Source: Candidatus Roizmanbacteria bacterium RIFCSPLOWO2_01_FULL_40_13
Lineage (GTDB): Bacteria > Patescibacteriota > Microgenomatia > UBA1406 > GWC2-37-13
DNA length: 45,715 nt
Direction: 5' to 3'
NCBI GenBank assembly: GCA_001789745.1
Contig: MGAN01000009.1
Span: 1 to 45,715 of the forward strand
A program made the translations under genes and the position numbers. Within the stretch, counting starts at the first letter, position 1. The number at the start of each line of letters is the position of its first letter. The notes under the pieces are model-generated. The model ran no database searches and was not told the origin of the DNA. It saw only the letters and a list, made by a program, of their open reading frames with translations. Below are positions 7,726-22,526 of the stretch, piece by piece.

Positions 7726-8418
7726 ATCTGTATACTTTGAGATGATCTTCTTTTGTTTTAATATAGCAATAATTTGGGCGTGAATAGCTTGTTTGTTTAA
7801 GAGATTGCCATTTCTTACGCAATTGATCTTGAGCCAATGTTTATTTTTTTTACTGTTTTCCAGGTATAGCTTCTCAACTTTTTTTCTGTAAACTCCGTTA
7901 TCCTCATGAATATCGTTGGATTTATCCGAAAGGTATTTTTTTTTGCCTTTTTGCTTAGATAAGACTGAACCTATTTGCCAAGGAACGAAGAGATAGATGA
8001 CGATATCTTCTTTTGGCAGCTTTTGGATTTTGTACTCGAGATCAAATACCCATTTGTTAAATTTGTCTCTATCTTGCTGGTGTAGAATTTTAGCGCCTTG
8101 ATAAACAAAGTTGGAGGTAGCGTAGCGATTACAGACTATATAGTTGCCCTTTTTGAGATGTTTACTAATTTTTTTACTTACTGTGGCGCGGTCAAGAGCG
8201 AAAACCAAAGCAGTTAGATAAGGCGACACCTGATCTAAACCACCAAACTCACCGCTTAAGAATCTGGCGACTATCTGACCATAGAATCCGTCATATTGAG
8301 GAAAGTCAAAGTAACTCACGGGTAGATGATTTTTCTTAAGATAGTCTCTTAACAATAAAGATTGAACAGTCTTACCTGATCCGTCGCCGCCGTCGATGAC
8401 AATTAGTTTTCCTTTCAT
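7708..8418 (-). CDS. tmk: Thymidylate kinase
   Basis: 236 residues, slightly longer than usual (about 210). P-loop IDGGDGSGKT (8-17), then YFDFPQYDGFYGQIVARFLSGEFG (the DFP..Y dTMP-binding region), TALVFALDRA (DR motif) and CNRYATSNFVYQG. It phosphorylates dTMP to dTDP. The start overlaps the stop of the upstream Clp-like ATPase by 4 bases (ATGA). The region after about residue 130 (LPKEDIVIYLFVPWQIGSVL, then a lysine-rich lid) is more divergent. Confidence 0.92.
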   Translation of the reverse strand: MKGKLIVIDGGDGSGKTVQSLLLRDYLKKNHLPVSYFDFPQYDGFYGQIVARFLSGEFGGLDQVSPYLTALVFALDRATVSKKISKHLKKGNYIVCNRYATSNFVYQGAKILHQQDRDKFNKWVFDLEYKIQKLPKEDIVIYLFVPWQIGSVLSKQKGKKKYLSDKSNDIHEDNGVYRKKVEKLYLENSKKNKHWLKINCVRNGNLLNKQAIHAQIIAILKQKKIISKYTDLTKSN

Positions 8419-10661
8419 AGAGTTATTACTTGATCCTGATTCAGCTTACCTTGCAGTATAACTTTGGCTATTTTATCTTCCACTTCGTCTCTTAGCAAGC
8501 GCTCTAGATTGCGCGCTCCAAATTTTGGATCATAGCCTTTGGCGACCAGATCATTGATATAAGAGTCGGAAAGACTAATCTTAACTTTATGGAGGCTGTA
8601 AATATCCTGAGAGATGACATCGAGCATCTTTTTGGCAATTAGTTTGGCGCTTTCAAGATCCAAAGGCCGATAGGCTATTACGCCGTCAAATCGATTGAGG
8701 AACTCGGGTGAAAAAATTTTTTGCTCGATAAGATGATCAATGAGACTGACGGAATTCATTTGACTAATGCGAGATCCTCCAGGGTTACTGTAAATAAAAT
8801 CCGATCCGGCATTGCTGGTTGCTATGATAACCAGATTCTTACAATCGACCCGTTTGCCAAAACCGTCGGTAAAATACCCCTCGTCCAGCACAGACAGGAA
8901 AATATTGATTAAATCCCTGTTGCCTTTTTCAATCTCATCCAAAAGCAAGACTCCGTACGGACTTTCTCTTACTCCTTTCGCCAAGAGTCCCGGATTGCCG
9001 GTATCGATCGACCCGATTAATTTAGGAATGTCAGCCGTAGACTGAAAATTAGACATATCAAAGCGAAGAAGATATATTTCGCCGCCAAAAAAAATCTTGG
9101 CTATCGCCTTGGCCGTCTCGGTCTTACCCACTCCCGTTGGTCCCAGGAATAAAAAACTGGCCAGAGGTTTTTTCCTCTTACCAAGCAGCAAAAACGACCG
9201 ACGCAAAGTAGACGCGACTTTTTTTATAGCTTCATTTTGATTGACTATTTTGGCCAGCAGCAGTTCTTCCAGGTGAATCAATTTATCTTTGGTGTTTTGA
9301 TTGACCGTGACCGGGACATGTGTTTTTTCACTGACGACTTTGTCGATTAGATCAGGCATTACAACCGTCTTATGAACTTGATCGGATTTGGCCAATACAC
9401 AGGCAGAATCCAGAAGATCGATGGCTTTTTCCGGAAAGGGAATTGCAGTAAGATAAAAATCGCTTTTTTGAATTGCTGTTTTTATCGTCTCATAAGGCAA
9501 AATAAGGCCATAGCGGTTTTCAAATGCAAAGCTTAGGGAAATCAGGATTTTTTCCGCTTCTGAGGCCGTGACTTCTTTGACATCAATTTTGACAAAAGAA
9601 CGGGCCAGCCTTTCGTTGTTAAATATATATTTTTCATAATAAAAGGGGGTAGTAATACCGATAAATTGCAGGGAATTTGATTTGGCATACTTTCCGATTG
9701 AGGAGGTTAAATCGATTTTTGCATTGTCATTTGCTAAATACCGGTCCAGATTGTCGATAAAGATGAGAATATTTTTGGCTTTTTGAGCTTCTGCAAACAG
9801 ATCTTCTAAAAAACTTTCCCTTTTTTTCAGGTCTGTCTCCTGATTTAAGATTTTCTCCATGTTGAGCCAAATAATTCTTTTGTACATGAGCATTGATTTA
9901 GTTTTGCCCTCGTACATTTTTTTGGCTAAAGCAATAACTACCGTATGCTTGCCTACGCCCTCCTCTCCGACTATGACTACATTAGCTTCCTGACTTTTGG
10001 ATAGTGTACGTTCGATTTCATCGATCTCTTTTTCCCGATCGACAATATTGAGCGTCTTATTTTGATAGGCTTGTGAGGTTAGGTCTTGGCCGTATTGGTC
10101 TAAAGTCGGTGTAAAACCTTCCGACCAATCGCGGGCAAGAGGAGGAATCGAGAAAAGATTAGCTTTGCTAAACCAGCGGGTGTGATGAATATGCTTCTGA
10201 TAATAATCCTCAAACCAAGATGCGACTTGTTTATAATTAACCTGATCGAGCAAATGCTGCCCGATAAATTTAAGTCTTAAGTGTTCCTTAACCTCCTCTT
10301 CTGATTTCCGAAAGCTGTAGGCTATAAAGCCAAAAGGCAGATATAAAAGATAAAAAACCAAAAAAAACGGAAGCGCTATAAGCAGCAAAGCCTGAAGGAA
10401 AAAATAAAAAAATAACAATGCCGATCTCATGATAAAACCAATGGATCGGGAGATGATATTAAAGCTTAGGATTGAGATCCAATGATCAAAGGAAAAACCC
10501 GCAGATCTATTTTCCGTAACCAGATTCTTCCAGGGATAAAAGAGTGTTTTCGTTAAGTCCGGGACCGAAAAAAAATAGGGTAGAAAAATGACAATATTGA
10601 CGACGGCCGTTTTAAAATTTACAAGTTGGTTACGGATAAAGAGTGAGAAATTTTTGTGCAT
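8415..10661 (-). CDS. Membrane-anchored Clp/HSP100-type AAA+ ATPase, two AAA modules
   Basis: 748 residues from the ATG at 10661, chosen because a -10 element ends 6 bases upstream and the longer frame runs into it. The N-terminal 120 residues hold two or three hydrophobic segments (about 21-32, 66-115) in place of a Clp N-domain. Then comes the ClpC-like linker TPTLDQYGQDLT, AAA-1 with Walker A GEEGVGKHT (232-240) and a Walker B reading LIFIDNLDRY, where Asn replaces the catalytic Glu. AAA-2 is complete: GPTGVGKTE (507-515), LLLDEIEK, sensor TSNAG, arginine finger in FLNRFDG and sensor-2 GARNLERLL. No M-domain and no IGF-like ClpP-docking loop are visible. It is probably a membrane-tethered unfoldase; partner unknown. 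Confidence 0.85.
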   Translation of the reverse strand: MHKNFSLFIRNQLVNFKTAVVNIVIFLPYFFSVPDLTKTLFYPWKNLVTENRSAGFSFDHWISILSFNIISRSIGFIMRSALLFFYFFLQALLLIALPFFLVFYLLYLPFGFIAYSFRKSEEEVKEHLRLKFIGQHLLDQVNYKQVASWFEDYYQKHIHHTRWFSKANLFSIPPLARDWSEGFTPTLDQYGQDLTSQAYQNKTLNIVDREKEIDEIERTLSKSQEANVVIVGEEGVGKHTVVIALAKKMYEGKTKSMLMYKRIIWLNMEKILNQETDLKKRESFLEDLFAEAQKAKNILIFIDNLDRYLANDNAKIDLTSSIGKYAKSNSLQFIGITTPFYYEKYIFNNERLARSFVKIDVKEVTASEAEKILISLSFAFENRYGLILPYETIKTAIQKSDFYLTAIPFPEKAIDLLDSACVLAKSDQVHKTVVMPDLIDKVVSEKTHVPVTVNQNTKDKLIHLEELLLAKIVNQNEAIKKVASTLRRSFLLLGKRKKPLASFLFLGPTGVGKTETAKAIAKIFFGGEIYLLRFDMSNFQSTADIPKLIGSIDTGNPGLLAKGVRESPYGVLLLDEIEKGNRDLINIFLSVLDEGYFTDGFGKRVDCKNLVIIATSNAGSDFIYSNPGGSRISQMNSVSLIDHLIEQKIFSPEFLNRFDGVIAYRPLDLESAKLIAKKMLDVISQDIYSLHKVKISLSDSYINDLVAKGYDPKFGARNLERLLRDEVEDKIAKVILQGKLNQDQVITL

Positions 10662-10667
10662 ATTTTG

Positions 10668-10697
10668 AGTATATATCAGTCTGCCTTGAAATTGCAA
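10668..10697 (-). promoter_or_regulatory. Promoter of the Clp-like ATPase, leaderless type
   Basis: Minus strand: TTGCAA (10697-10692), 18-base spacer, TATACT (10673-10668), then 6 bases to the ATG at 10661. This supports the shorter start and a leaderless mRNA. Confidence 0.6.
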
Positions 10698-10731
10698 TTT
10701 AAAAAAATAAAATGCCGCAAAAAAAAAGAAT

Positions 10732-10766
10732 TTGACAAACAGGAATTTTTTTTAATAATGTATAAA
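10732..10766 (+). promoter_or_regulatory. Candidate promoter of the PP-loop/ATP-grasp operon
   Basis: TTGACA at 10732-10737 is perfect. The -10 is ambiguous: TAATGT at 10756-10761 has an 18-base spacer, while TATAAA at 10761-10766 is a better hexamer but 23 bases away. Either puts the start a few bases before the ATG at 10775. It is divergent from the Clp-like ATPase promoter, with about 110 bases between the two start codons. Confidence 0.4.
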
Positions 10767-10774
10767 GCACAATA

Positions 10775-12157
10775 ATGTCAGATCAACCTTTACACGTTTT
10801 TCGAAAAATAAATAAAACCGGAGTCGAGATCAAAATAAAAAAAAGGGTATACGATATTAAATATCCCTACCAGATCTGGGAAAAGTTGCCTAAGTCGCTG
10901 CATCGACTGTTTGCCGACAGTCTCGCTTATATTTCAACCTGGCATCTGCCTTTGGTCAATAAAACCTTTTTAAATTATCACTTTTCCCATCCTCCGATCG
11001 AACCGGTTTTTTTTAAGATTCTCCTTTACTCTATACCGATGAATATCTTTGAGGAGCGAAATCTTAAAACCTCGGAACTGGTAAGGCAGTTTTATAACGC
11101 TAATTTCAAAACCCAGTTTAAAGCTCTTGATTCTTCCTACTCCGGTAAAAAAGTTAAAAAAAGATTGAAAAATAAAGCTATCATACTATTTTCATTCGGA
11201 AAAGACAGCCTGTTGACCTACGGGATACTCTCGGAGCTTGGGATTAACTCGGCCCTTATTTTTATGAAAGAGCCCCAGTGTTTTATCGAAAATAAGCACA
11301 AAAAGAGGTTGGCCGACAAGTTTTACCAAAAAATCGGAGTGGAGGTGAAATTCTTTTCCCTTTCCATAGGTAAGCTTCGCCAGGATAAAGATATGTGGTG
11401 GGGTTGGGACATAATTCTTTCCCAGTACGCTTTCATACTTATTCCTTATTATTTCTATCATCAGGCGCGCTATCTTTTTTTCGGCAACGAGCAAAGTTGC
11501 AATTTTTATTTGAGAGACAAAGAAGGATACTTGGTCAATCCGGTCTATGAGCAAAGCGTTTCTGCTATGCAGCTGATGCAGGATATTCCAAAACTTTTTT
11601 TTATCAAAACCCAGATCGGAAGTCTGGTTGAGCCAATCCATGAGATATTTGTAACTTTTATTCTTCATCACAGATACGCAGAGATCGGCCGTTTTCAGAT
11701 GTCTTGCTTTTCCGAAGAAGAGCAGGCTAGAAATAAGAGGTGGTGCGGCGTCTGTGAAAAATGCGCCAGGATGTATATATTTCTTAGAGCATTCAACATC
11801 TCAACCGAGCGGGTAGGTTTTTCTAACAGCGACATGCTTTCGAATAAAAAAGAAAAGTACTATGTTCTTTTCAACGGCGAAAGCGATATAAGCGCTTATG
11901 GAGGGAGCGGACTCGGGCGTGACGAGCAACTTTTGGCATTTTATCTCTCGTATAAAAACGGCGCCAAAGGAGAGTTGATCGACAGATTTAGACGTTTGCA
12001 CTTAAACGAAGCTGAGCAAAAGCAAGAAAAGTTGGTAGAGGAATATTTCGGAATCCACAGCTCCTATTCCCTACCCTCAACGCTAAGAAAAAAAGTCTTA
12101 AGAATTTTTGATAAAGAAAAAAAAGCCGCTTTAAAATATCTTGCTAAAATTTTATGA
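10775..12157 (+). CDS. PP-loop ATP-pyrophosphatase-like protein, possibly MurL-related
   Basis: 460 residues. A core of SFGKDSLLTYGILSELG (140-156) is the PP-motif (SGGxDS type with Phe-Gly-Lys) that binds ATP pyrophosphate in adenylating enzymes. FFGNE follows at 235-239, and a cysteine cluster RWCGVCEKCARM (Cys324, Cys327, Cys330, plus Cys311) probably binds a metal. This arrangement resembles MurL-type proteins, which epimerise the terminal L-Glu of a UDP-muramoyl dipeptide through adenylation, but I cannot confirm orthology. Its stop overlaps the next start as ATGA, the first link in a four-gene operon with two ATP-grasp ligases and a flavoprotein. Likely job: activating a carboxylate or carbonyl of a peptide or peptidoglycan precursor. 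Confidence 0.6.
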   Translation: MSDQPLHVFRKINKTGVEIKIKKRVYDIKYPYQIWEKLPKSLHRLFADSLAYISTWHLPLVNKTFLNYHFSHPPIEPVFFKILLYSIPMNIFEERNLKTSELVRQFYNANFKTQFKALDSSYSGKKVKKRLKNKAIILFSFGKDSLLTYGILSELGINSALIFMKEPQCFIENKHKKRLADKFYQKIGVEVKFFSLSIGKLRQDKDMWWGWDIILSQYAFILIPYYFYHQARYLFFGNEQSCNFYLRDKEGYLVNPVYEQSVSAMQLMQDIPKLFFIKTQIGSLVEPIHEIFVTFILHHRYAEIGRFQMSCFSEEEQARNKRWCGVCEKCARMYIFLRAFNISTERVGFSNSDMLSNKKEKYYVLFNGESDISAYGGSGLGRDEQLLAFYLSYKNGAKGELIDRFRRLHLNEAEQKQEKLVEEYFGIHSSYSLPSTLRKKVLRIFDKEKKAALKYLAKIL

Positions 12158-13227
12158 AAAAAAAGAAGAAAAATCCTTTGAGCAGGTCTAACTATCATAG
12201 TCTTCCCCAGTCGGTTGCCGTAATCTTCAGCGAAGTAAAAAGGAATTATTTCCCAACCCAGATGCAGTATCTCACCGAAAAAGATGCTTTTCACGATGCG
12301 CAGGTTATCGCCGACTACCTTGAGAAGATGAAGATCAGCGCCTATCTTTTTCCGGGAAATGAGATGCTGGCTGTCAAACTGCGAAGGGCTAAGCCGACTA
12401 TGGCTATAAATTTGGTCGGATCGGTCAAGGGCAATGAGTATCTGGCGTCAACCATACCGGCTTTGCTTGAACTTCTTGACATTCCCTATACCGGCGCCGG
12501 AATCCTGGGTGAATCACTCTCATACAATAAATTTTTGATTAAGAAGTTGCTGCAGCAAAACGGCGTACCTATTCCAAACTACCAACTATTTAACAATCAT
12601 AATGATCCGCTCGATCCAACGTTAAGATTTCCTTTAATTTCAAAACTAAATGAAATTCACGGAGCAGTAGAGATCACTCAAGACTCGGTATCAGAAACCG
12701 AGAAGCATCTGCGAAAAAGAATGAAGTATCTAATCAATACCTATGAGCAGCCTATCTTGGTCGAGGAGTTTATTGTGGGTCGGGAGATCACCTCGATTTT
12801 GCTGGAAGGGCTGAATAAAAAAGTTTATAGTGCGGAAAAGATCTTTAACAAGCCTGATCAAAAATATATCTTTGCCACTTTTGCTGATCAGTGGCTGGAA
12901 AGCGGAAGTGAGGCATTTAGGTATCAGCAGTACAATGATCCGCTGCTTCGTGAATATATAAAAAAAGCTTTTGAGATTACCAAGATGGCAGACTACGGTA
13001 AATTTGATATCAGACTGGACCCGTCGGGAAGATATTATTTTATAGACGCCAACAGCAATCCGGCGTTTGGTCCTAAGGAATTAGAGTGCGCCATAGCTAA
13101 TATTCTTGATCTTTATGATATCTCGTTCAGCGATATTTTAAAGCGGCTTCTGATCAATACGCTGAGAGACGCAAAAGGCAAAAAGCTGCTTCCTCTGACC
13201 AAAAACGGCTTTAACTCTGAAAATTAA
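12154..13227 (+). CDS. ATP-grasp ligase, D-Ala-D-Ala ligase-like, divergent glycine loop
   Basis: 357 residues. After a basic N-terminus the pre-ATP-grasp half contains AINLVGSVKGNEYLASTIPALLELLDIPYTGAG, as in D-Ala-D-Ala ligases, with SLSYNKFLIKKLLQQNGVPIPNY following. The usual KPxxxGSSxGI loop is replaced by SKLNEIHGAVEI (about 165-176). The distal half has LVEEFIVGREITSILLEG and the metal-binding FDIRLDPSGRYYFIDANSNP with Asp where the family usually has Glu. It should make an amide or ester bond using ATP via an acyl phosphate; substrates are unknown. It overlaps the PP-loop gene by 4 bases and precedes a second, only distantly similar ATP-grasp by 10. Confidence 0.8.
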   Translation: MKKKKKNPLSRSNYHSLPQSVAVIFSEVKRNYFPTQMQYLTEKDAFHDAQVIADYLEKMKISAYLFPGNEMLAVKLRRAKPTMAINLVGSVKGNEYLASTIPALLELLDIPYTGAGILGESLSYNKFLIKKLLQQNGVPIPNYQLFNNHNDPLDPTLRFPLISKLNEIHGAVEITQDSVSETEKHLRKRMKYLINTYEQPILVEEFIVGREITSILLEGLNKKVYSAEKIFNKPDQKYIFATFADQWLESGSEAFRYQQYNDPLLREYIKKAFEITKMADYGKFDIRLDPSGRYYFIDANSNPAFGPKELECAIANILDLYDISFSDILKRLLINTLRDAKGKKLLPLTKNGFNSEN

Positions 13228-13237
13228 TAATTGATTT

Positions 13238-14263
13238 ATGGTAAAAAGGAAAAATCTGGCTCTTATTTACAACCTTCGCCGCCACTATCCCGATCCCAAA
13301 GACCCTAGGAGCAATCTGGAAGCGGATTTCGACGACCCGCCTACTATTGGTTGGATGATCAAGCATTTAAAAAAGATAGGCTATAATGTCATCCCGATTG
13401 AGGCTGACGAAAAAGCTTATCTTAAGATATACAGGCATCGGAAATCGATAGATTTGGCTTTTGATTTTTCTTTCGGTCTCTGGGGAGAGAATAAATACGG
13501 TCATATTCCGGGGATGCTTGAGATGTTGCGGATTCCTTTTGCCACCTCCTCTTCTTTTACCAGAAACCTTACCTTGAATAAGGTTAAGATGAAGCAAATT
13601 CTAGCGGCAAATAATATCCCAACCCTTCCTTTTCAGGTTTTTAAAAATAAAAGCGATGTAAAGATAAAAAAACTTCCCTATCCCTTAATTGTTAAGCCGA
13701 TCGCCCAAGGATCATCTGCTGGTATAACCAATAAGAGTATTGTAAAAAGAGATAAAGAGTTGGAAAGACAGATAAATTTTATAAATACAATTTTCAACAC
13801 GCCTGCTTTTGTAGAGCCATTTCTTGACTTTAGGGAATTCTCGGTTCCGTTGTTGGGGAACCCTCCCAGAATACTTCCGATAATCGAGCCGGATTTCAGC
13901 TTGCTGCCAAAAAAATACCGGCATATTGATTCACTGGAGGTGAAGTGGATATTCGAAGAACAGGAAGAAACTAATTACCTGGTTTGTCCCGCAAAACTAA
14001 GCGGAACAATAAAAAATAAAATCGAAAAAGTGGCATTGGCAACTTGGGATGCGCTTGAAATTAATGATATCTGCCGGATCGATATGAGAACGGACAGAAA
14101 TGAAAATCTCTATGTTTTGGATGTGAATGCGCCTCCCGGACTGATACCTCCCGAAGTATCGATGACTTCATATTTTCCGCTTGCGGCACGGGCAGCCGGT
14201 ATTGAATATGAAGAATTGCTGAAAATAATTCTCAATTCTGCTATAAAGAGGTATAGGCTATAA
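13238..14263 (+). CDS. ATP-grasp ligase, D-Ala-D-Ala ligase-like, canonical loop
   Basis: 341 residues. N-terminal substrate-domain sequence (LALIYNLRRHYP..., SFGLWGENKYGHIPGMLEMLRIPFATSS) is followed by LTLNKVKMKQILAANNIPTLPF, the canonical ATP loop YPLIVKPIAQGSSAGI, AFVEPFLDFREFSVPLLG, and CRIDMRTDRNENLYVLDVNAPPGLIPP with Arg, Asp and Asn ligands (Asp replaces Glu in the first position of the DVN triad). This looks like a functional carboxylate-amine ligase. True D-Ala-D-Ala ligase activity is possible, but two such genes side by side after a PP-loop gene suggest a dedicated short peptide or a modified wall precursor. The next gene begins 4 bases after the stop. Confidence 0.82.
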   Translation: MVKRKNLALIYNLRRHYPDPKDPRSNLEADFDDPPTIGWMIKHLKKIGYNVIPIEADEKAYLKIYRHRKSIDLAFDFSFGLWGENKYGHIPGMLEMLRIPFATSSSFTRNLTLNKVKMKQILAANNIPTLPFQVFKNKSDVKIKKLPYPLIVKPIAQGSSAGITNKSIVKRDKELERQINFINTIFNTPAFVEPFLDFREFSVPLLGNPPRILPIIEPDFSLLPKKYRHIDSLEVKWIFEEQEETNYLVCPAKLSGTIKNKIEKVALATWDALEINDICRIDMRTDRNENLYVLDVNAPPGLIPPEVSMTSYFPLAARAAGIEYEELLKIILNSAIKRYRL

Positions 14264-14267
14264 AAAT

Positions 14268-15239
14268 ATGTACGATCTAATCATCATCGGAGGAGGCCCT
14301 GCCGGACTTACAGCCTCAATCTACGCTTCTTGTTTTGGTTTAAAACATTTAGTTATCGCTAAAACTTTAGGAGGACAGATGATGCTTGCACCTGACATTT
14401 TAAATTACCCCGGCTTTACGGAAATCGCCGGTATAGATTTGACTCAAAAGATGGTCGATCAGCTTAAAAAAAGAGGCGGAGAGATAGTAACCGACGCGGT
14501 AATCAAAGTAAGCAAAATCGAAGGAGGTTTTCTGTTAACCGCGGAACAAAATAAGGAATATCAAGCCAAAACGATTATCTTGGCAACCGGAGTTGAAAGG
14601 AGGAAGTTAAATGTCCCCGGTGAAAACGAGTACATTGGCCGGGGTATTGAGTACTGTGCCAAGTGCGGCAAGTTCGATTATCTGGGTAAGACGGCCGTTG
14701 TCATAGGCGGCGCAAATTCCGCTGCCCAAACTGCTGTTCAGGTTGCGCACTCTGCCAAAAAGGTTACCGTCATTTATCGGGGCAGCGAGCTTCGCTGCGA
14801 CGAAATTTGGAAAAAGCACATTCAAGAAAATCCTAACATTGAGATAATCTTTAATTCGACGATCTCGGAAATTAAGGGTAACGGACAGTACGTAACCGCA
14901 GTAACCATACAATCGAAAAACGAACAAGGACAGCCGGAAGCGAAAGAGCTGATCATAGACAAGGTTTTTATCGAAATCGGCGGAGTTCCGGGCACGGCTT
15001 TGCTAATTCCTTTAGGGGTATCTATGGATCCGGGTGGATTTATTGCCATTGATGAAAGATTGGCTACCAATGTGTCCGGAGTTTATGTTGCGGGTGACGT
15101 CATCAGTCACAAATACTCCATCGAGCAGATAACTTCCGCCGTCGGATCAGGCGCCCGCGCCGCCAGCCTGGTTTTTTCCTACCTCAAGCAGTCTGCAGCC
15201 CCTACTCTCTGGGGCAGCAGCCAGATAAAAAGAAGTTAA
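14268..15239 (+). CDS. Thioredoxin-reductase-like FAD/NAD(P)H flavoprotein
   Basis: 323 residues. FAD-binding GGGPAGLTASIYA (8-20), LGGQM, NYPGF, an ATG(VERRKL) segment, the redox-active pair CAKC (Cys130, Cys133), the second dinucleotide fold VVIGGANSAAQTA (145-157), and the C-terminal GVYVAGDV...QITSAVGSGARAA. Members reduce thioredoxin or related disulfides with NADPH. Two departures stand out: the Asp after CATC in the classical enzyme is Gly134 here, and the HRR NADPH-phosphate motif reads IYRGSELR. It is the last gene of the ATP-grasp operon and may act on the operon product or on a thioredoxin-like partner. It could also be the general TrxB. Confidence 0.85.
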   Translation: MYDLIIIGGGPAGLTASIYASCFGLKHLVIAKTLGGQMMLAPDILNYPGFTEIAGIDLTQKMVDQLKKRGGEIVTDAVIKVSKIEGGFLLTAEQNKEYQAKTIILATGVERRKLNVPGENEYIGRGIEYCAKCGKFDYLGKTAVVIGGANSAAQTAVQVAHSAKKVTVIYRGSELRCDEIWKKHIQENPNIEIIFNSTISEIKGNGQYVTAVTIQSKNEQGQPEAKELIIDKVFIEIGGVPGTALLIPLGVSMDPGGFIAIDERLATNVSGVYVAGDVISHKYSIEQITSAVGSGARAASLVFSYLKQSAAPTLWGSSQIKRS

Positions 15240-15261
15240 ATTTGAGTAAGACTAAGTTTGT

Positions 15262-16416
15262 TTATGACTTATTTGAGATAAGCCGCAAAAATAATTTTTC
15301 CGTTTTGTCGATCGAAGATTCAGAACTATACTTTTTCGAACTTTCAGCCGCCTCACCGGAGAATTTCTCTCTCTTTTTACTGTCCCTGAGTAGAATACCC
15401 AATTTTTCAACGAACTCTTTTTGAGATTTTACCAGAAATCCGTTTTTTCCATGATTTATAAAATCCTTGGGTCCCGGAGCCTTAAACGCTACTATGGGTA
15501 ATCCATGGATTAAAGCTTCAAGTATGACTAAAGCTTGTACGTCCGCTTTGGAGCTATAGATAAATATATCACTAAGACTATAAATTTCGGATATTTTGTC
15601 AATTTTGACAGGACCCAAGAATTTGACCACCTTAAGTAAATTTAATTTATTGACCAGTTTGAGCAAATTCTTGTCTTCGGGTCCGGCTCCCGCAAGCAGA
15701 AAAGTAATATTGAATTTTTTGTTGGATTTCAGCAAGCGGGAAACTATTTTTATAAGGACGCTTAAGTTTTTTTCTTTTGCCAGTCTTGAAACGCACAGCA
15801 AAATTGTTGAATTTGCAGCGATACCGTATTTTTTGACAAGTTTAGGCTTATCTAAGTTTTTTTCAATTTCGGAAAATCTTAAGGTAGTTATCACAGTTAT
15901 TGGTGTTTTTTGCGTTTGTTTTAAAAGCTTCCGCTTGAATGTACCGGTTTCTACCAGAATATGAGAGGCTTTGTCCATGATATTGGTGATATTTTTGGCG
16001 AAATGTTTACTGAAAAGCGTTAGACCGGTTAATTTTTTTAAATAAACTTTTGCTAAGTAAACATAATTTGTATGAAAAAAGAAAATAGAGGGACAAGCAT
16101 AATGTTTCGCTAAGCTTAGTGCCAGTCGACCGATATGGAAAGGATGATGGAAGTAGATAAGGTCGATTTTTAATGGTAATCGATGAAGTATAAAAATTTT
16201 GGGAATGGGTAAGATAAGGGGATAATCAGGATAAATTGGATTTGGCAAGGAAGCTAGTCTGATGACGTTTTTCTCAGGTCTTTGTTCTGGATGGTGAGGC
16301 GCCAATAGAGTTACATTATGACCTCTTTTTTCAAATTCTTTTTTCTGGCGGGCTAAATTTATTGCAACACCGTTAATGCTGGGAGTATAGGTGGCTGTAA
16401 TAATAAGTATATTCAT
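15262..16416 (-). CDS. Glycosyltransferase family 4 protein
   Basis: 384 residues, GT-B fold. N-terminal acceptor domain MNILIITATYTPSINGVAI with GHNVTLLAPHHPEQRP; C-terminal nucleotide-sugar domain with LLCVSRLAKEKNLSVLIKI (donor-phosphate Arg/Lys), VKFLGPVKIDKISEIYSLSDIFIYSS, and a DVQALVILEAL segment in which Asp replaces the first Glu of the usual E-x7-E. It resembles lipid-linked or diacylglycerol glucosyltransferases of this family. Donor could be UDP-glucose from the nearby galU product; acceptor unknown. It converges with the trxB-like gene, only 22 bases apart. A palindrome lies upstream (16432-16448). Confidence 0.9.
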   Translation of the reverse strand: MNILIITATYTPSINGVAINLARQKKEFEKRGHNVTLLAPHHPEQRPEKNVIRLASLPNPIYPDYPLILPIPKIFILHRLPLKIDLIYFHHPFHIGRLALSLAKHYACPSIFFFHTNYVYLAKVYLKKLTGLTLFSKHFAKNITNIMDKASHILVETGTFKRKLLKQTQKTPITVITTLRFSEIEKNLDKPKLVKKYGIAANSTILLCVSRLAKEKNLSVLIKIVSRLLKSNKKFNITFLLAGAGPEDKNLLKLVNKLNLLKVVKFLGPVKIDKISEIYSLSDIFIYSSKADVQALVILEALIHGLPIVAFKAPGPKDFINHGKNGFLVKSQKEFVEKLGILLRDSKKREKFSGEAAESSKKYSSESSIDKTEKLFLRLISNKS

Positions 16417-16431
16417 AATCTAAAATAATTA

Positions 16432-16448
16432 CTTATTTCGGAAATAAG
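16432..16448. repeat. 8-bp inverted repeat upstream of the GT4 gene
   Basis: CTTATTTC and GAAATAAG flank a single G. It lies 16 bases from the glycosyltransferase ATG, in the right place for an operator. No T-run follows. Confidence 0.4.
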
Positions 16449-16481
16449 CACCGGAAGAGTCAATTTGTTTTATTTTTACCT

Positions 16482-17168
16482 TCAGCCTTTTTTGCGTATG
16501 AATTCGTCAACAGCCTTTCTACAACCGTCCCAGTAGTAATAATCGTCTATGATGACATATCCTCCCGGGATAACCAGGGGATATAAATTATCTAAAGCCG
16601 ATGCGGTTGATTCATACCAGTCCGCATCAAGACGAAGCAAAGCAATTTTCCTGATCACATTTTTATATTTAGGAAGTGTGTCTCTAAACCAACCTTTAAC
16701 AATCTTTACCTGATGGGTGTTGATTTTAAGTTTATTAAACAACAGTTCCTTAATGTGGTCATCATCTGCCCTGATTTTACCAGTTAGTTTAATTGCTTCT
16801 TCTCCATCGGCCTCTATGGGTATCGGCATGCCTTGGAAAGAATCAAAAAAATAAGTCTTGTTTTTGTAACCGTATTTTCTTGAAATATAGGATAGGATTC
16901 CCGCAGTACCGCCTTTCCAAACTCCGGTTTCCACAAAATCGCCGTTAACGCTCTGCTTAGCTAATCGTTCGGCTATGTCCCAAAGAGATTTTAATCTTAG
17001 GTAATTTACGTGGGTAAACGGTTGTATCAGTTTTAAGAGTTCCTTTCTTTCTAAATTTAAGTCGAAAAAAGAATGCAGGTCGAAGGAAAGGTTATACAGA
17101 TATTTGAAGTTTTTATTATCCGGATCGGCGAATCCTAATTTATTGACGATTAAAGATTTTAAAGACAT
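16482..17168 (-). CDS. TylF/MycF-like SAM-dependent O-methyltransferase
   Basis: 228 residues. SAM-binding VETGVWKGGTAGILSYI (about 78-94), FDSFQGMP, and the metal/catalytic end LRLDADWYESTASALDNLYP and GGYVIIDDYYYWDGCRKAVDEF, which match the macrocin O-methyltransferase family (Mg-dependent, methylates sugar hydroxyls). It probably methylates a surface glycan; it sits beside the GT4 gene. The C-terminus ends right after the last core helix. TAAAAT lies 6 bases before the ATG, so it may be read from a leaderless start as well as from the tRNAs upstream. Confidence 0.88.
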   Translation of the reverse strand: MSLKSLIVNKLGFADPDNKNFKYLYNLSFDLHSFFDLNLERKELLKLIQPFTHVNYLRLKSLWDIAERLAKQSVNGDFVETGVWKGGTAGILSYISRKYGYKNKTYFFDSFQGMPIPIEADGEEAIKLTGKIRADDDHIKELLFNKLKINTHQVKIVKGWFRDTLPKYKNVIRKIALLRLDADWYESTASALDNLYPLVIPGGYVIIDDYYYWDGCRKAVDEFIRKKG

Positions 17169-17174
17169 TTGAAT

Positions 17175-17180
17175 ATTTTA
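17175..17180 (-). promoter_or_regulatory. Candidate -10 for the TylF-like gene
   Basis: TAAAAT on the minus strand with a 6-base gap to the ATG at 17168. Its -35 position falls inside the tRNA-Val gene and shows no consensus. Confidence 0.35.
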
Positions 17181-17188
17181 AAACATTG

Positions 17189-17261
17189 TGACCGCTGAGG
17201 GTCTTGAACCCCCGACCTTTGCGATGTAAACGCAACGCTCTGCCAACTGAGCTAAGCGGTC
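17189..17261 (-). tRNA. tRNA-Val (TAC)
   Basis: Complete cloverleaf: acceptor GACCGCT/AGCGGTC, D-arm TAGCTCAGTTGGCAGAGC, anticodon stem TTGCG/CGCAA around TTTACAT giving anticodon TAC, and T-arm GGGGGTTCAAGACCCTC. Discriminator base A at 17189. The 3' CCA is not encoded, so CCA-adding enzyme is required. Six bases separate it from tRNA-Ile. Confidence 0.96.
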
Positions 17262-17266
17262 TTAAG

Positions 17267-17338
17267 TGGGTGCGCCAGGGATCGAACCTGGGACCTCGTT
17301 CTTATCAGGAACGCGCTCTACCACTGAGCCACGCACCC
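17267..17338 (-). tRNA. tRNA-Ile (GAT)
   Basis: Acceptor GGGTGCG/CGCACCC, D-arm GTGGCTCAGTGGTAGAGCGC, anticodon stem CGTTC/GAACG around CTGATAA giving anticodon GAT, T-arm CCAGGTTCGATCCCTGG. Discriminator A at 17267; no encoded CCA. In many bacteria this tRNA sits in the rRNA spacer; here it is about 5 kb from the 16S gene. A TATAAT on the minus strand at 17414-17409 could be its -10. Confidence 0.96.
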
Positions 17339-17434
17339 TTTTACACCTCGATGAGTAGGTCAGAACAGCCTTTTTGCATTAAACTCATTTCCTTTTTCGG
17401 TCTAAATTATTATAACAGAGTTTAATGAAACCCC

Positions 17435-17995
17435 TTATGTAAAGTGAAATTTTTTGAGATCGGAAACCTCTATTACTCCTTTGCTGCAAATTGAGAAAAA
17501 TCTTAAAGCCGCAATCTGGCCAAACTCGCGATTAGTCTGGCAACAGTCTTTTAATACATAAACATTATAGCCAAGGTGAGAGGCTGTAACCGCAGTTTCT
17601 CTAATGCAACAATCTGTCTGGCAGCCGGTAAGATACAAATCCTTAATCCTCAATTTTTTAAGAAGTTTTTCTAATCCGCTTAACCAAAACCCGTCATACC
17701 CTCTTTTTTTAAGAACATAGTCATTTTTACCAGGCTTAAGTTCATCTATCACTTTAGGATCATTTCGCTTTTCCATTGATTGCTCACGATAATTGATTAA
17801 TTTATAAATTGGATCAAATCCTCTAAATGCCGAATTGATGTAAATTAAGGGAATTTTTTTTGAGCGAGCTAACCTGACAGCTTTTTTTACCTTAAAAATA
17901 AGTTTTTGTCTGGTTTCTATTGGGACAAGAGGTTTTTCACCTTTGATATAAAGATCAATCATATCCGTGATCAATAAAGCCTTGTGTTTATTCAT
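17435..17995 (-). CDS. Isochorismatase-like cysteine hydrolase (nicotinamidase-type)
   Basis: 186 residues. Catalytic triad of the family is visible: Asp11 in LLITDMIDLY, Lys96 or Lys97 in DYVLKKRGYDGFW, and Cys130 in TGCQTDCCIRETAVTASHLGYNV, with the usual cis-peptide region before it. Members hydrolyse amides or enol ethers (nicotinamide, isochorismate, N-carbamoyl compounds); the substrate here cannot be told from sequence. TATACT lies 5 bases before the ATG. Confidence 0.9.
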   Translation of the reverse strand: MNKHKALLITDMIDLYIKGEKPLVPIETRQKLIFKVKKAVRLARSKKIPLIYINSAFRGFDPIYKLINYREQSMEKRNDPKVIDELKPGKNDYVLKKRGYDGFWLSGLEKLLKKLRIKDLYLTGCQTDCCIRETAVTASHLGYNVYVLKDCCQTNREFGQIAALRFFSICSKGVIEVSDLKKFHFT

Positions 17996-18000
17996 AAAGT

Positions 18001-18006
18001 AGTATA
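18001..18006 (-). promoter_or_regulatory. -10 element of the isochorismatase-like gene
   Basis: TATACT on the minus strand, 5 bases before the ATG at 17995, predicting a leaderless mRNA. The -35 is poor (TGGTAA). Confidence 0.45.
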
Positions 18007-18070
18007 CTCAGTTTAAAAGATATTTTACCATAATCAATTGAATGGTAAATAGAGCAATATAAAGCTTTTT

Positions 18071-18079
18071 TGTTAAAAT
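18071..18079 (+). promoter_or_regulatory. Extended -10 upstream of the GNAT-like gene
   Basis: TGTTAAAAT (TGn plus TAAAAT) ends 5 bases before the ATG at 18085. It supports the start at MEKRI and a leaderless transcript. Confidence 0.5.
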
Positions 18080-18084
18080 TCAGC

Positions 18085-19188
18085 ATGGAAAAACGAATAA
18101 GTCGCAATAGGCAAAAAAATACGTTTGCGTCGCTAGGTTTTGCATCAGAAGCAGTTGGAAGGAATGAGCTTTCTGCCACAGATTTTTTTAAATACGTACC
18201 GATGATTTTTGACGCCAGCGCAAGATTATTAGTTCCTCAAGCTACGCAACTTGACGTGTTAACATTAGTCGGTTATCCTATAGTAGATATTCTAAACCCC
18301 CTCTTGCACCCTAAAGTTGAATTCGAATTCATAAAAGATGATGCCGGAGGAACAGATACCATTGGATTCATCATTACCTGGAAGGGGGAAAAACAAAATT
18401 GGCACCATTTGTACCTGCCTAAGGAGCTGGCCAAGTATTTTATGGAGAATTTAATTTCTGATAAAAGACGCAATCCATATTTTGTAGTACTTATGAAGGA
18501 TGAGGATTATACATTATTGAAAGAAGGTTTCACAGAAGCAGAGTTAAGAAGTTTTACAGATGGACGTCAATTAAAAAAAGGTAAACGAACCAAGGAAGAC
18601 ATTGCTTATTATTACAGGATGGGTCTGACCTGGGACAGATTTTGTAGTGTTAGTGAAGAAAATAAACCTAGAGTAGTAATCGAATTACCAGACAGCCCTC
18701 TCAATTTGAATGAAATGGTTCAGGTGCGAATTCCGGAGAGTTTAAGATCAAAATTACCTGAGTCTGAACGTAATAAAAAAGTAACCGCAAGATTATTAAC
18801 GGTTGAGGATTTTGAGGCATTTTATCGTCTGCATTATCGGGATAACCCACACCCCTCGTTAAAATTAACAGATTTTATAGCAATGAATGTCGGTTTATTT
18901 GCGGATGATGAACCAATTGCTCAAGCGGGAAATGTAGCTGAGGCCGTTTTTGATTTTGGCGGTAGCAGGAGACATATCAACTTGGCAGGAAATTTGATTG
19001 TGCGTAGGGACTGGCGGGGTATTAATTTAGGTGAAGCCTTGAGTTATTATACAAGATTTAATGATTTCAAAAGGGATCCGAGCTCAATTTTGATCGCCGA
19101 TAATGTATTGGGAACTAGAGATATGTGGAAAAAGCTTTATGGTCAAATACCGGTAGTCGCCAAGACCGCCTGGGAGGGTATTGAATAA
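18085..19188 (+). CDS. GNAT-acetyltransferase-like protein with unknown N-terminal half
   Basis: 367 residues from the ATG at 18085. The C-terminal third looks like a GNAT fold: TARLLTVEDFEAFYRLHYRD opens like an acetyltransferase, LFADDEPIAQAG is the middle strand, and NLIVRRDWRGINLGEALSYY resembles the acetyl-CoA loop (V.p.yRG.GlG..L), though the Q/RxxGxG/A motif is imperfect. The first 230 residues match nothing I recognise; they are soluble and include FIITWKGEKQNWHHLYLPKELAKYF and PRVVIELPDSPLNLN. It stands alone between the isochorismatase-like gene and the metal-transport pair. Substrate unknown. Confidence 0.6.
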   Translation: MEKRISRNRQKNTFASLGFASEAVGRNELSATDFFKYVPMIFDASARLLVPQATQLDVLTLVGYPIVDILNPLLHPKVEFEFIKDDAGGTDTIGFIITWKGEKQNWHHLYLPKELAKYFMENLISDKRRNPYFVVLMKDEDYTLLKEGFTEAELRSFTDGRQLKKGKRTKEDIAYYYRMGLTWDRFCSVSEENKPRVVIELPDSPLNLNEMVQVRIPESLRSKLPESERNKKVTARLLTVEDFEAFYRLHYRDNPHPSLKLTDFIAMNVGLFADDEPIAQAGNVAEAVFDFGGSRRHINLAGNLIVRRDWRGINLGEALSYYTRFNDFKRDPSSILIADNVLGTRDMWKKLYGQIPVVAKTAWEGIE

Positions 19189-19210
19189 TTATTTTTCAAT
19201 TTAATATAAT
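19181..19210 (+). promoter_or_regulatory. Promoter of the MgtE-N/CBS and Nramp-like pair
   Basis: TTGAAT (19181-19186), 18-base spacer, perfect TATAAT (19205-19210), then 6 bases to the ATG at 19217. Predicted transcription starts at the A of ATG. Confidence 0.65.
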
Positions 19211-19216
19211 CAACTT

Positions 19217-20422
19217 ATGATCTACTTTTCCGAATTGAAGGGAAAAAAAGTTGTGACGGAAGATATGATTCAGGTTGGAATACTTGAGGATCTGATATTC
19301 TCTGCATCCGAAAATCCCTCTATTACAAAAATTGTAGTCAAAAATAAAGATGATATTCGCTTAACGATTCCTGTAGTTTTTTTGTCCAAAATTAATAATT
19401 ATATTTATCTTAAAAAGGATTTTCGCACTACTAATTTAGCTGAAGATGAGTTATTTATTTTAAAAAATATACTTGACAAGCAAATTATTGATCTTCAGGG
19501 AAATAAAGTAGTTAGGGTAAACGACATTGCAATACAGAATAAGGGAGGATTTTATATCGCTGGAGTTGATATTGGAGTTTTGGGACTACTGAGGTGGTTT
19601 AAGTTAGAAAAAACATTCAGGAAAATCAGCAGCAAAATTAATTTTAAGCCGGTATCCCAGTTTTTATCCTGGGCAGATATTCAGCCATTGGAATTAGTGC
19701 ATGGCCAAGTGAAGTTAAAAAAAGAGGAGCAAAGATTAGAAAAAATGAGACCGGAAGATTTGGCAGATTATCTTGAGAAAACTAATTTAACCTCAGTTAA
19801 AAAAATATTAAATATACTTGACGAAAAATTTGCGGCTAACGTGGTTGGCAATTTAAATGTTAATTACCAGTCCTCTTTATTTAAATTGTTTACTCCAGAT
19901 AAAGCGGCAAGAATCATAGCTTCGATTGATCCAGACGACGCAGTTGACTTATTGTTAATTCTAACTGAAAAAAAAAGAAATCAAGTTTTGAATTACCTAT
20001 CAGAAAAAAAATACAAAGAACTTATGCACTTGATGAGACTTTCAAATACGCCTATTGGTAATTTGATCTTACCCGAATTTATAGCTGTTTATTCAGACGA
20101 TTTGGTGGGAGAAATACTAAAAAAAATTAGAAAAGGAACAACAGATTTTTCATTTTTACAGCATGTTTATGTGGTAAATAAACAAAATGAGTTAATCGGA
20201 GTAGCTAATCTTCATGAATTAATCATGCAAAGCTTCCAAACGCCGATTTACCGTTTTATGATCCAGAATGTAGTGGTGGTACATTTAACCACACCGGGGG
20301 AAATTGCTTTAAAAAAGATCTTGAAATATAAATTAAGCGCTTTACCCGTAATTAACAATGATAAGCAAATTGTCGGTTTGGTCACTATCGTTGATTTAAT
20401 AAACGCATTTAATAAGGGTTAA
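19217..20422 (+). CDS. Soluble PRC-barrel, MgtE-N and CBS-domain protein (metal sensor-like)
   Basis: 401 residues without membrane helices. Two PRC-barrel-like halves open the protein (about 1-80 and 85-145, including QGNKVVRVNDIAIQ). A helical MgtE N-terminal-like domain follows (about 175-270: RPEDLADYLEKTN, KAARIIASIDPDDAVDLLLIL), then two CBS domains (about 285-401: VYVVNKQNELIGVANLHELI and LPVINNDKQIVGLVTIVDLI). In MgtE this N-plus-CBS part senses magnesium and gates the channel, but the MgtE pore is missing. The next gene, 29 bases away, is an Nramp-related transporter. I infer a regulatory or partner subunit of that transporter. Confidence 0.85.
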   Translation: MIYFSELKGKKVVTEDMIQVGILEDLIFSASENPSITKIVVKNKDDIRLTIPVVFLSKINNYIYLKKDFRTTNLAEDELFILKNILDKQIIDLQGNKVVRVNDIAIQNKGGFYIAGVDIGVLGLLRWFKLEKTFRKISSKINFKPVSQFLSWADIQPLELVHGQVKLKKEEQRLEKMRPEDLADYLEKTNLTSVKKILNILDEKFAANVVGNLNVNYQSSLFKLFTPDKAARIIASIDPDDAVDLLLILTEKKRNQVLNYLSEKKYKELMHLMRLSNTPIGNLILPEFIAVYSDDLVGEILKKIRKGTTDFSFLQHVYVVNKQNELIGVANLHELIMQSFQTPIYRFMIQNVVVVHLTTPGEIALKKILKYKLSALPVINNDKQIVGLVTIVDLINAFNKG

Positions 20423-20451
20423 ATCTTTAATTAAAGCATTCAACTAAAAGA

Positions 20452-21699
20452 ATGAGATTTTTGTGGAACAAGTATAAATTTTTATTTTTATCTTTTTTCT
20501 CAGTTTTTGGGCCGGCGACTATTTCGGCCATAGCCGACAATGACGCAGCCGGTGTAGCGACTTTTACTTTGGTCGGAGCTAAATTCGGCTACTCTATTCT
20601 TTTTGTCTTACTTTTTGTGACTATACTTTTAGCAGTTACCCAAGAGATGGGTGTAAGAATCGCCGTAGTCACGGGCAAAGGATTAGGCGATTTCATCAGA
20701 GAAAGATATGGAGTCAGGACCGCTTTGCTGGTTTTCCTGCTGCTCTCAATTGCCAATTTGGGATCGATTGTGGCCAACTTTTCTGCGCTAAAGGCTGTCG
20801 CCGGCATGTTTAATTTTCCGGCGTTCTTGCTGATTATCTTAATTATCGGTTTTGCTTTTTTGATTATCTCTAAAGGGGGCTATCATACTAATCAAAGAGT
20901 TTTTTTGCTGGCGGCACTTTTTTATTTTTCCTATATCTTTTCTGCTTTTCGATCCAATCCAAATTGGGGTCAGGCGCTGGTTAGTCTAATTTCACCCGGT
21001 CAACTGCAGTTTTCACAGGAGTTTATTTTTGCCTCGATTGCAGTATTGGGTACGACAATTACTCCCTGGGGTCAATTTTTCGTCAACAGCTTCATGGTAG
21101 ACAAAAAAATACAGTTGGATAAGCTAAGATTCGCCCAAATTGAAACTTACTTCGGATCGTTCTTAGCCAACTTCTTCTCTTTTTTTATGGTGGTGGCGAC
21201 TGCCGCGACTCTTTATAAGCATGGGATAAACTTGGTATCAGGGGAACAGGCTGCCATTGCCATTGCGCCTTTTGCCGGACAGTTTGCCGGCTTTTTATTT
21301 GCTTTTGGACTGGTTAACTCGGCTATTATGGGAATAATCGTCATTTCGTTGACCACTGCTTATGCCTTTTCCGAATTTTTTGGCTTTGAAGGCAGTCTTG
21401 ATGCTCCTTTTGAAAAAGGAAAGTTATTCTACGGAATATTTCTTTTCCAGCTGGTTATTGCCTCGGTTATCGTTATGCTGCCGTTTATCAGTTTATTTCA
21501 GATAGTATTATATACTCAATCTGTCAATGCGATTCTTTTGCCTCTGATATTTTTTTATCTGCTTAAGATTACCAATAACCGGAGCCTGATGGGGAAATAC
21601 GTAAATAACAAATGGCAAAACTACCTGGCGATTTGTTCTTCTGGTATAATAATTGTTTCGGCTATTTTTGTAATATTTGGCTTATTGTTTAAACTCTAA
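20452..21699 (+). CDS. Nramp-related divalent metal transporter, probably magnesium-type
   Basis: 415 residues with about 10-11 membrane helices. TM1 reads GPATISAIADNDAAGVATF: the DPGN motif of classical Nramp has become DAAG (Asp31 kept, Asn replaced by Gly34). In TM6, LGTTITPWGQFF stands where classical members have the metal-binding Met in MPH; Thr204 occupies the Met place. Loss of that Met and Asn is the known mark of Nramp-related magnesium transporters, since the Met disfavours magnesium. Together with the MgtE-N/CBS neighbour, magnesium uptake is the best guess; manganese cannot be ruled out. Confidence 0.88.
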   Translation: MRFLWNKYKFLFLSFFSVFGPATISAIADNDAAGVATFTLVGAKFGYSILFVLLFVTILLAVTQEMGVRIAVVTGKGLGDFIRERYGVRTALLVFLLLSIANLGSIVANFSALKAVAGMFNFPAFLLIILIIGFAFLIISKGGYHTNQRVFLLAALFYFSYIFSAFRSNPNWGQALVSLISPGQLQFSQEFIFASIAVLGTTITPWGQFFVNSFMVDKKIQLDKLRFAQIETYFGSFLANFFSFFMVVATAATLYKHGINLVSGEQAAIAIAPFAGQFAGFLFAFGLVNSAIMGIIVISLTTAYAFSEFFGFEGSLDAPFEKGKLFYGIFLFQLVIASVIVMLPFISLFQIVLYTQSVNAILLPLIFFYLLKITNNRSLMGKYVNNKWQNYLAICSSGIIIVSAIFVIFGLLFKL

Positions 21700-21704
21700 A
21701 AAAT

Positions 21705-22526
21705 ATGAAGAAACTGATAATTGTTGCCGACTGGGCCTCCGATACTCTGACCTGTCAAGAGGTGCGATCGGCGGTGGAGGGTTATTTAAAAGAACATGAA
21801 GGAGGAATTATCACATTTATCCACTCTACTCCATCAACCATACACACCGCATTTCTGGTTGCGCAGATAGTCGAGGTTGAGGAACGTTTTGGCAAACCAT
21901 TAGAAACAGTTATCTTTCAGAATACTGACCCCCGACTTCACTCGGATGAGGCGCTTAAGAATTCAGAAGGCGCAAAACCCTTGATTGTCAGGCTAAAAAC
22001 CGGAATTTATCTAACCGGTCCCAATGCCGGATATGACTTCTCTTTAATCAAGGATAAAATCGAGGAAGTGTATGAATACAAAGGGTTGAATACCAAAGGT
22101 CAATTTCACTCAAGGGATCTGTATTCGCGAATATCAGCCCACCTCATGGACGAGATGGAAGACGAGATGGAGTTGGAAGAGGTATCAAGCAATCTTATCC
22201 CAAGATTGGAAGGTTTACGTATCGCCCATATAGATAATTTTGGCAATATCAAGACATTAATCCCCCACTCGCATTTTAAGGGAAAATATGAATACAACGA
22301 TTTGGTATTTATTTCGATAAATGGAATTAAACAAAAGGCCAAATATGTGACCAGTCTTTTTGGCGGGAAACCCGGTGAATTGGTAATCTATCCCGGTTCA
22401 TCAGGCAGGACAGATGACAGATATTTGGAGATTACTGTTTGGCGACACTTTACAGAAAAAAATCCAACCACCGGAGTTGATAAGTTTAATCTGCCAAGAC
22501 CGGGAATGAAAATTGAACTTCTTTAA
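21705..22526 (+). CDS. DUF62 / SAM hydroxide adenosyltransferase-like protein
   Basis: 273 residues. The two-domain layout of the SAM-hydrolase/fluorinase superfamily is visible: N-terminal LIIVADWASD with catalytic-site Asp, VIFQNTDPRLHSDEA in place of the usual V.DPGVG, LTGPNAGYDFSLI (GPNNG), FHSRDLYSRISAHLM (FHGRD..AP.AA), and the C-terminal IAHIDNFGNIKTLI (D.FGN). Known bacterial members hydrolyse S-adenosylmethionine to adenosine and methionine. The first motifs are altered, so the activity is uncertain. It follows the transporter by 5 bases and converges on the 16S gene. Confidence 0.85.
   Translation: MKKLIIVADWASDTLTCQEVRSAVEGYLKEHEGGIITFIHSTPSTIHTAFLVAQIVEVEERFGKPLETVIFQNTDPRLHSDEALKNSEGAKPLIVRLKTGIYLTGPNAGYDFSLIKDKIEEVYEYKGLNTKGQFHSRDLYSRISAHLMDEMEDEMELEEVSSNLIPRLEGLRIAHIDNFGNIKTLIPHSHFKGKYEYNDLVFISINGIKQKAKYVTSLFGGKPGELVIYPGSSGRTDDRYLEITVWRHFTEKNPTTGVDKFNLPRPGMKIELL

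Follow-up and report, generated by a model that had tools for sequence, protein, structure and literature searches.

Gene Content of the Island

An island of four genes was analyzed in a 45,715-nucleotide stretch (hereafter the window) of Candidatus Roizmanbacteria bacterium RIFCSPLOWO2_01_FULL_40_13 (GenBank assembly GCA_001789745.1, contig MGAN01000009.1, positions 1 to 45,715), a probably host-dependent bacterium whose genome (G000) comprises 1.04 Mb in 21 contigs and is 89% complete. The island encodes a PP-loop protein resembling MurL (PP), two ATP-grasp ligases (AG1 and AG2) and a TrxB-like flavoprotein (TRX), and the list of open reading frames (ORFs) confirmed that the genes are closely packed, with gaps of -4, 10 and 4 bases, as stated in the original prediction, which was made from the sequence alone (Table 1). 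A Clp-like AAA gene lies divergently on the left and a glycosyltransferase gene convergently on the right, so that a shared transcript could span no more than these four genes. The element TTGACA-16-AATAAT, which agrees with the promoter consensus at 11 of 12 positions and is a consensus match only, ends 15 bases 5' of the first start codon.

Table 1. Positions in the window of the island genes, their motifs and the bordering genes.
Feature	Position	Strand	Evidence or remark
Promoter-like site upstream of the four genes	10732..10759	+	Consensus match only
PP, PP-loop, MurL-like protein	10775..12157	+	ORF, 460 aa; NF041275 MurL, E=1.1e-7
GKDS of the PP-loop, residues 142-145	11198..11209	+	G142 and K143 invariant in 78 homologs; common to dcw MurL
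Four-cysteine site C311, C324, C327, C330	11705..11764	+	Probable QueC-like metal site
AG1, ATP-grasp ligase with altered loop	12154..13227	+	357 aa; Dala_Dala_lig_C, 39.4 bits
AG1 altered nucleotide loop KLNEIHGAVE, from K164	12643..12672	+	Invariant residues across six AG1 proteins
AG2, ATP-grasp ligase with canonical KPxxxGSSxGI loop	13238..14263	+	341 aa; Dala_Dala_lig_C, 95 bits
AG2 loop KPIAQGSSAGI	13694..13726	+	Sequence and alignment
TRX, TrxB-like flavoprotein, island-specific paralog	14268..15239	+	323 aa; second TrxB homolog in the genome
TRX CAKC active-site-like motif, followed by G (D in housekeeping TrxB)	14655..14666	+	Alignment
TRX YRGSELR in place of the HRRxxxR (NADPH) motif of housekeeping TrxB	14775..14795	+	Alignment
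Clp-like AAA protein, left border of the swap site	8415..10697	-	Family match; position in relatives
MgtE-type, NRAMP-type and SAM-hydrolase-type genes (named by eye), right border	19217..22526	+	Position kept in relatives

The PP-Loop Protein and the Wall MurL

MurL is the nearest family of PP, as predicted. PP matched the NCBIfam model NF041275 at 30.7 bits, below the model cut-off of 700 bits, and MurL was the sole NCBIfam family matched by the PP homologs (67 of 78 at E<1e-3). PP has no Pfam match, no QueC or asparagine synthase family of Pfam was matched by any of the 78 members at E 0.01, and a PDB sequence search with the PP profile gave no usable match. In addition, no relative of PP was found in phage, plasmid and viral collections, PHROGs gave no match, and none of the four island proteins matched the PADLOC models, which include Qat and Cap9 among known anti-phage defense systems, at E 0.001. 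The AlphaFold model of PP is confident (pLDDT 94.6) and has a QueC-like PP-loop fold, with QatC, QueC and Cap9 at the top of the structural matches at Z 13-14 (QueC structures 2pg3, Z 13.6, and 3bl5, Z 13.4) and other PP-loop enzymes at about 10 or lower. PP thus shares its overall fold with these three enzymes, but differs from them in partners and extra domains and has no sequence-family match to them. A tRNA-modifying role for PP, which the original prediction had raised as a possible refutation, was rejected because the likeness is in fold only.

The SFGKDS motif and the cysteines noted earlier are both present, and G142, K143, C311, W323, C324, C327 and C330 are invariant in the 78 homologs. 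PP and MurL are similar in length and hold in common a core of the PP-loop GKDS, an NExS motif, four cysteines and a conserved glutamate, whereas many positions that are fixed in MurL outside this core differ in PP. The four-cysteine set is also found in most dcw MurL proteins, and QueC likewise has a four-cysteine site.

Related genomes, in which genes were called as longest ORFs, contain a second PP class that is 21-30% identical to the window class and is typically located in the dcw operon, with MraY on one side and MurD on the other; one of these proteins scored 357.9 bits against the MurL model. In the PP tree, dcw MurL forms a clade separate from the window class (support 100), with other gene neighbors, and both classes are present in several genomes. 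A MurI-type racemase was found in 2 of 26 genomes with dcw MurL versus 47 of 90 others (p=3e-5), whereas 7 of 22 genomes with the window class have MurI (p=0.34), so that this class has no tendency to replace it; nor was a pairing with MurD or MurD2 in place of MurI, as for MurL, found for the window PP. The sister genomes G001 and G052 carry the PP-AG1-AG2 island as well as MurD next to a MurI-type gene. Given its distinct clade, the MurD and MurI-type racemase of the sisters, and its archaeal homologs (see below), PP is in all likelihood not the wall MurL.

The true MurL is located beside MurD in the dcw operon at G040:C21:32507-34659 (L060:7100-9678) and in 25 other relatives, and relatives with dcw MurL-MurD, many of them Roizmanbacteria and their kin, usually have no MurI-type racemase. 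The alternative wall pathway of Xanthomonas thus seems common in Patescibacteria; term searches of two reviews did not find it listed there.

The ATP-Grasp Ligases

AG1 and AG2 proved to be unlike each other and related to Ddl, one with a canonical and the other with a changed nucleotide loop, as originally read. Both exceed the cut-off of Dala_Dala_lig_C (PF07478; 24 bits), whereas neither reaches that of the Ddl model TIGR01205 (135.1 bits for AG2 and 84.4 for AG1; cut-off 245.65). In alignments, the GGxSxEHEVS D-Ala motif is absent from both N-termini and present in the Ddl of the related genome G037. AG2 keeps the GSSxGI loop of Ddl, but has DxN in place of the ExN metal motif and KW in place of the KY pair. 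Judged from their sequences, the two proteins are therefore ligases of the Ddl/LAL superfamily without the Ddl D-Ala motif.

In AG1 the loop is replaced by KLNxxxGxV, in which K164, L165, N166, G170 and V172 are invariant in six AG1 proteins ranging from Roizmanbacteria to Aenigmatarchaeota. As this altered loop is conserved from bacteria to archaea, it is unlikely to reflect decay, and its conservation argues for a functional loop. Relatives in Aenigmatarchaeota are 42-43% identical to AG1 and 53-57% identical to AG2, and the latter value suggests that AG2 was transferred between domains. For AG1, AlphaFold with six sequences gave a model of low quality (pLDDT 52), which was not used.

The TrxB-Like Flavoprotein

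The flavoprotein resembles TrxB in its FAD/NAD folds by family match, but its score against TIGR01292 (288.7 bits) is below the cut-off of 343.45. A separate trxB, as envisaged in the original prediction, is present at G000:C13:24125. Most relatives have one TrxB copy, whereas the genus of the window and G006 have two, namely the housekeeping copy and one beside AG1-AG2; in the genus group of the window, the paralog adjoins AG1-AG2 in all six genomes that have it, which bears out the earlier view that the flavoprotein belongs to the system. The island copies form a separate clade, about 30% identical in alignment to the housekeeping copies, and the window protein has CAKCG for CATCD and YRGxxxR for HRRxxxR. 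Of the six island copies in the genus group, five keep the CxxC motif, and that of G001 has HAKW, with both cysteines lost. The same TrxB-like subfamily lies beside PP in three Gottesmanbacteria, in one of which PP and TRX are 1 base apart. An assignment as housekeeping TrxB was therefore rejected in view of the separate genomic TrxB, the distinct clade and the altered motifs, and the flavoprotein is a dedicated paralog beside the ATP-grasp pair.

Gene Neighborhoods in Relatives and in Archaea

The island occupies a hotspot of gene swapping, corresponding to positions 10698-19216 of the window and the equivalent regions of relatives, between the Clp-like AAA gene and the MgtE-, NRAMP- and SAM-hydrolase-type genes. 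This site is empty in G007, holds a FemAB-like gene alone in G015, G030, G032, G034 and G066, PGM1-like and AG2 genes in five genomes, and a double ATP-grasp gene alone in others. PP-AG1-AG2-TRX is found in G000 and G001, AG1-AG2-TRX without PP in G002 and G006, and PGM1 in place of PP in G004 and G005. PP is an optional member at this site.

Overall, the neighborhood of PP is strongly enriched in ATP-grasp genes. At 75 loci, 39 of them were counted in the 620 slots within five genes of PP, versus about 1.6 expected from an ATP-grasp background of 0.25% assumed by us; the loci are related by descent and not independent. ATP-grasp genes occur near PP at 30 of the 75 loci, 22 of them directly adjacent on the same strand. 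When mapped on the PP tree, the presence of such a neighbor must have been gained or lost at least 13 times across branches with strong support, so that the link between PP and ATP-grasp enzymes is recurrent but loose. In other phyla, the partners of PP include a double ATP-grasp protein (a LAL-type half and a Ddl-type half) with a homolog of L-Ala-D/L-Glu epimerase and, in the same clusters, a third ATP-grasp and a pyridoxal phosphate (PLP)-dependent decarboxylase of the LysA/Orn family; another set comprises AG2 and a lysine 2,3-aminomutase (KamA family) homolog, and FemAB-like enzymes are also among the neighbors.

The window class of PP is present in many Patescibacteria and also in Woesearchaeota, Aenigmatarchaeota, Nanoarchaeota, Diapherotrites and others. 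Bin contamination was checked for some of the archaeal loci, and one Woesearchaeota copy of PP has RadA (449 bits) and RNase P component 4 as flanking genes. Murein synthesis is not known from archaea of these groups. In a Nanoarchaeota bin, a lysine 2,3-aminomutase (445.7 bits) is fused to a Ddl-like AG2 next to PP (L156:5753-7876). In addition, clusters with the double ATP-grasp, PP and the dipeptide epimerase encode a protein (cluster c66; L176:10424-11554 and its relatives) that is conserved, has about 370 aa and gave no match in Pfam, NCBIfam or PHROGs.

Possible Function

We give about an even chance to the island being a small peptide biosynthesis operon that is free of nonribosomal peptide synthetases (NRPSs); of the two readings offered originally, this bolder one of a peptide pathway fits best. 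The terminal Glu is inverted by MurL in one direction at the cost of one ATP, with AMP as a product, and adenylation of the alpha-carboxylate was proposed by the authors of that work (PMC8788868, PMC5808125). Gene order, families, PP fold, motif conservation, co-occurrence and separation from the wall MurL were observed as described above, whereas the individual reactions, their sequence and their product are inferred. AG1 and AG2 would join amino acids via acyl-phosphates, PP would adenylate the carboxylate of the last residue of the peptide with ATP and invert it from L to D like MurL, and the flavoprotein may oxidize or reduce either the product or a partner. AG1 and AG2 would together be the core, to which PP, PGM1-like and FemAB-like proteins, dipeptide epimerase, PLP decarboxylase and lysine 2,3-aminomutase would be added interchangeably in other genomes for tailoring or supply, and the product would be a short peptide with D-residues and, in some lineages, beta-residues. 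It is also possible, although we hold this with less than even confidence, that a modular NRPS-free pathway is common to Patescibacteria and DPANN, built on Ddl/LAL ATP-grasps and a MurL-derived ATP-driven epimerase, supplied in some lineages with beta-amino acids by an aminomutase (once fused), and yielding a peptide that perhaps serves host-dependent cells for signaling, antagonism or protection.

Several points weigh against such a pathway. The MurL identity depends on a low score, and the fold also fits QueC-like amidating enzymes. In the PP subclade of the window, ATP-grasp neighbors are found in 3 of 13 members only, and a Dala_Dala_lig_C protein is lacking altogether in 5 of the 22 relatives that carry PP. 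As G001 has HAKW, a dithiol role of the flavoprotein cannot be general. No carrier or transporter is known for the proposed pathway.

The main rival of epimerization is C-terminal amidation, in which PP would act like QueC or AsnO and cap the dipeptide made by the ATP-grasps with an amide (or a nitrile), in the way AsnO acts in the formation of N-acetylglutaminylglutamine amide, to give an osmolyte or a capped peptide. In the asnO-ngg cluster a PP-loop enzyme, an ATP-grasp and a GNAT-type enzyme occur together, as here, and PP-loop, ATP-grasp and GNAT-like genes recur together. The nearest folds (QatC, QueC and Cap9) point the same way, and work on nitrilobacillin describes an asparagine-synthetase-like enzyme that amidates and nitrilates peptides at the C-terminus and was compared with AsnO and QueC (PMC13060819). 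However, PP has no glutaminase domain, the similarity to QueC is mainly confined to residues 130-345 of its model, its only family match is to MurL, and the ligases are Ddl/LAL-like, and we consider amidation unlikely. We are more doubtful that AG1-AG2 and the flavoprotein form one system while PP has an unrelated job and was placed beside them by the swap hotspot. Most PP genes in the subclade of the window have no ATP-grasp neighbor, and at the swap site PP is dispensed with or replaced by PGM1, which would agree with this. Genes not kept together in relatives, named in the original prediction as a refutation, thus apply in part; but PP overlaps AG1 by 4 bases in the window, lies beside the same TrxB-like subfamily in the Gottesmanbacteria, and has independent ATP-grasp neighbors in many phyla.

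The conservative wall reading, with PP acting as MurL on UDP-MurNAc-dipeptide and AG1/AG2 as Ddl-type enzymes that make D-Ala-D-Ala or a variant for MurF, appears improbable. It draws on the family match of PP and on the gene content of G000, in which no Dala_Dala_lig_C protein besides AG1 and AG2 was found and MurA, B, C, E, F and MraY were identified, whereas family searches of this assembly, which is only 89% complete, found no above-cut-off MurD, MurI, Alr or canonical Ddl and the dcw cluster stops after MraY. Of murC-F, murI and a separate ddl, which the original prediction proposed to look for, MurC, E and F were thus found, and the ATP-grasps being the only Ddl copies, which it named as part of a refutation, applies formally to G000 and not to its sister genomes. 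Against a wall role stand the MurD and MurI-type racemase that accompany the island in G001 and G052, the dcw MurL clade, which tends to replace MurI as the window class does not, the canonical Ddl alongside a double ATP-grasp and PP island in G037, and the presence of PP in DPANN archaea. Alr is also missing from most relatives.

Significance and Additional Observations

The genomes of Patescibacteria and DPANN are very reduced, and thus the upkeep of a swappable operon dedicated to a peptide within about 1 Mb would be a strong hint at a molecule important for their lifestyle. The same enzymes are found again, in shuffled combinations, in other ultra-small bacteria related to this one and in archaea that are likewise ultra-small but have no such cell wall. 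If the peptide pathway is real, the MurL reaction, in which ATP drives the epimerization of a peptide in one direction and which was described for the synthesis of the cell wall, would be reused elsewhere. The parts, namely ATP-grasp peptide assembly and MurL-type chemistry, are known, and the novelty would be a variant in organisms in which it was not expected. No account of such clusters in Patescibacteria turned up in the literature searched, an absence that is weak evidence. The island is a directly testable set of small enzymes.

In addition, a GNAT-like protein, recognized by eye and without a Pfam match, is encoded at positions 18070-19188 of the window, and a different GNAT-like protein adjoins the island in the sister genome G001.

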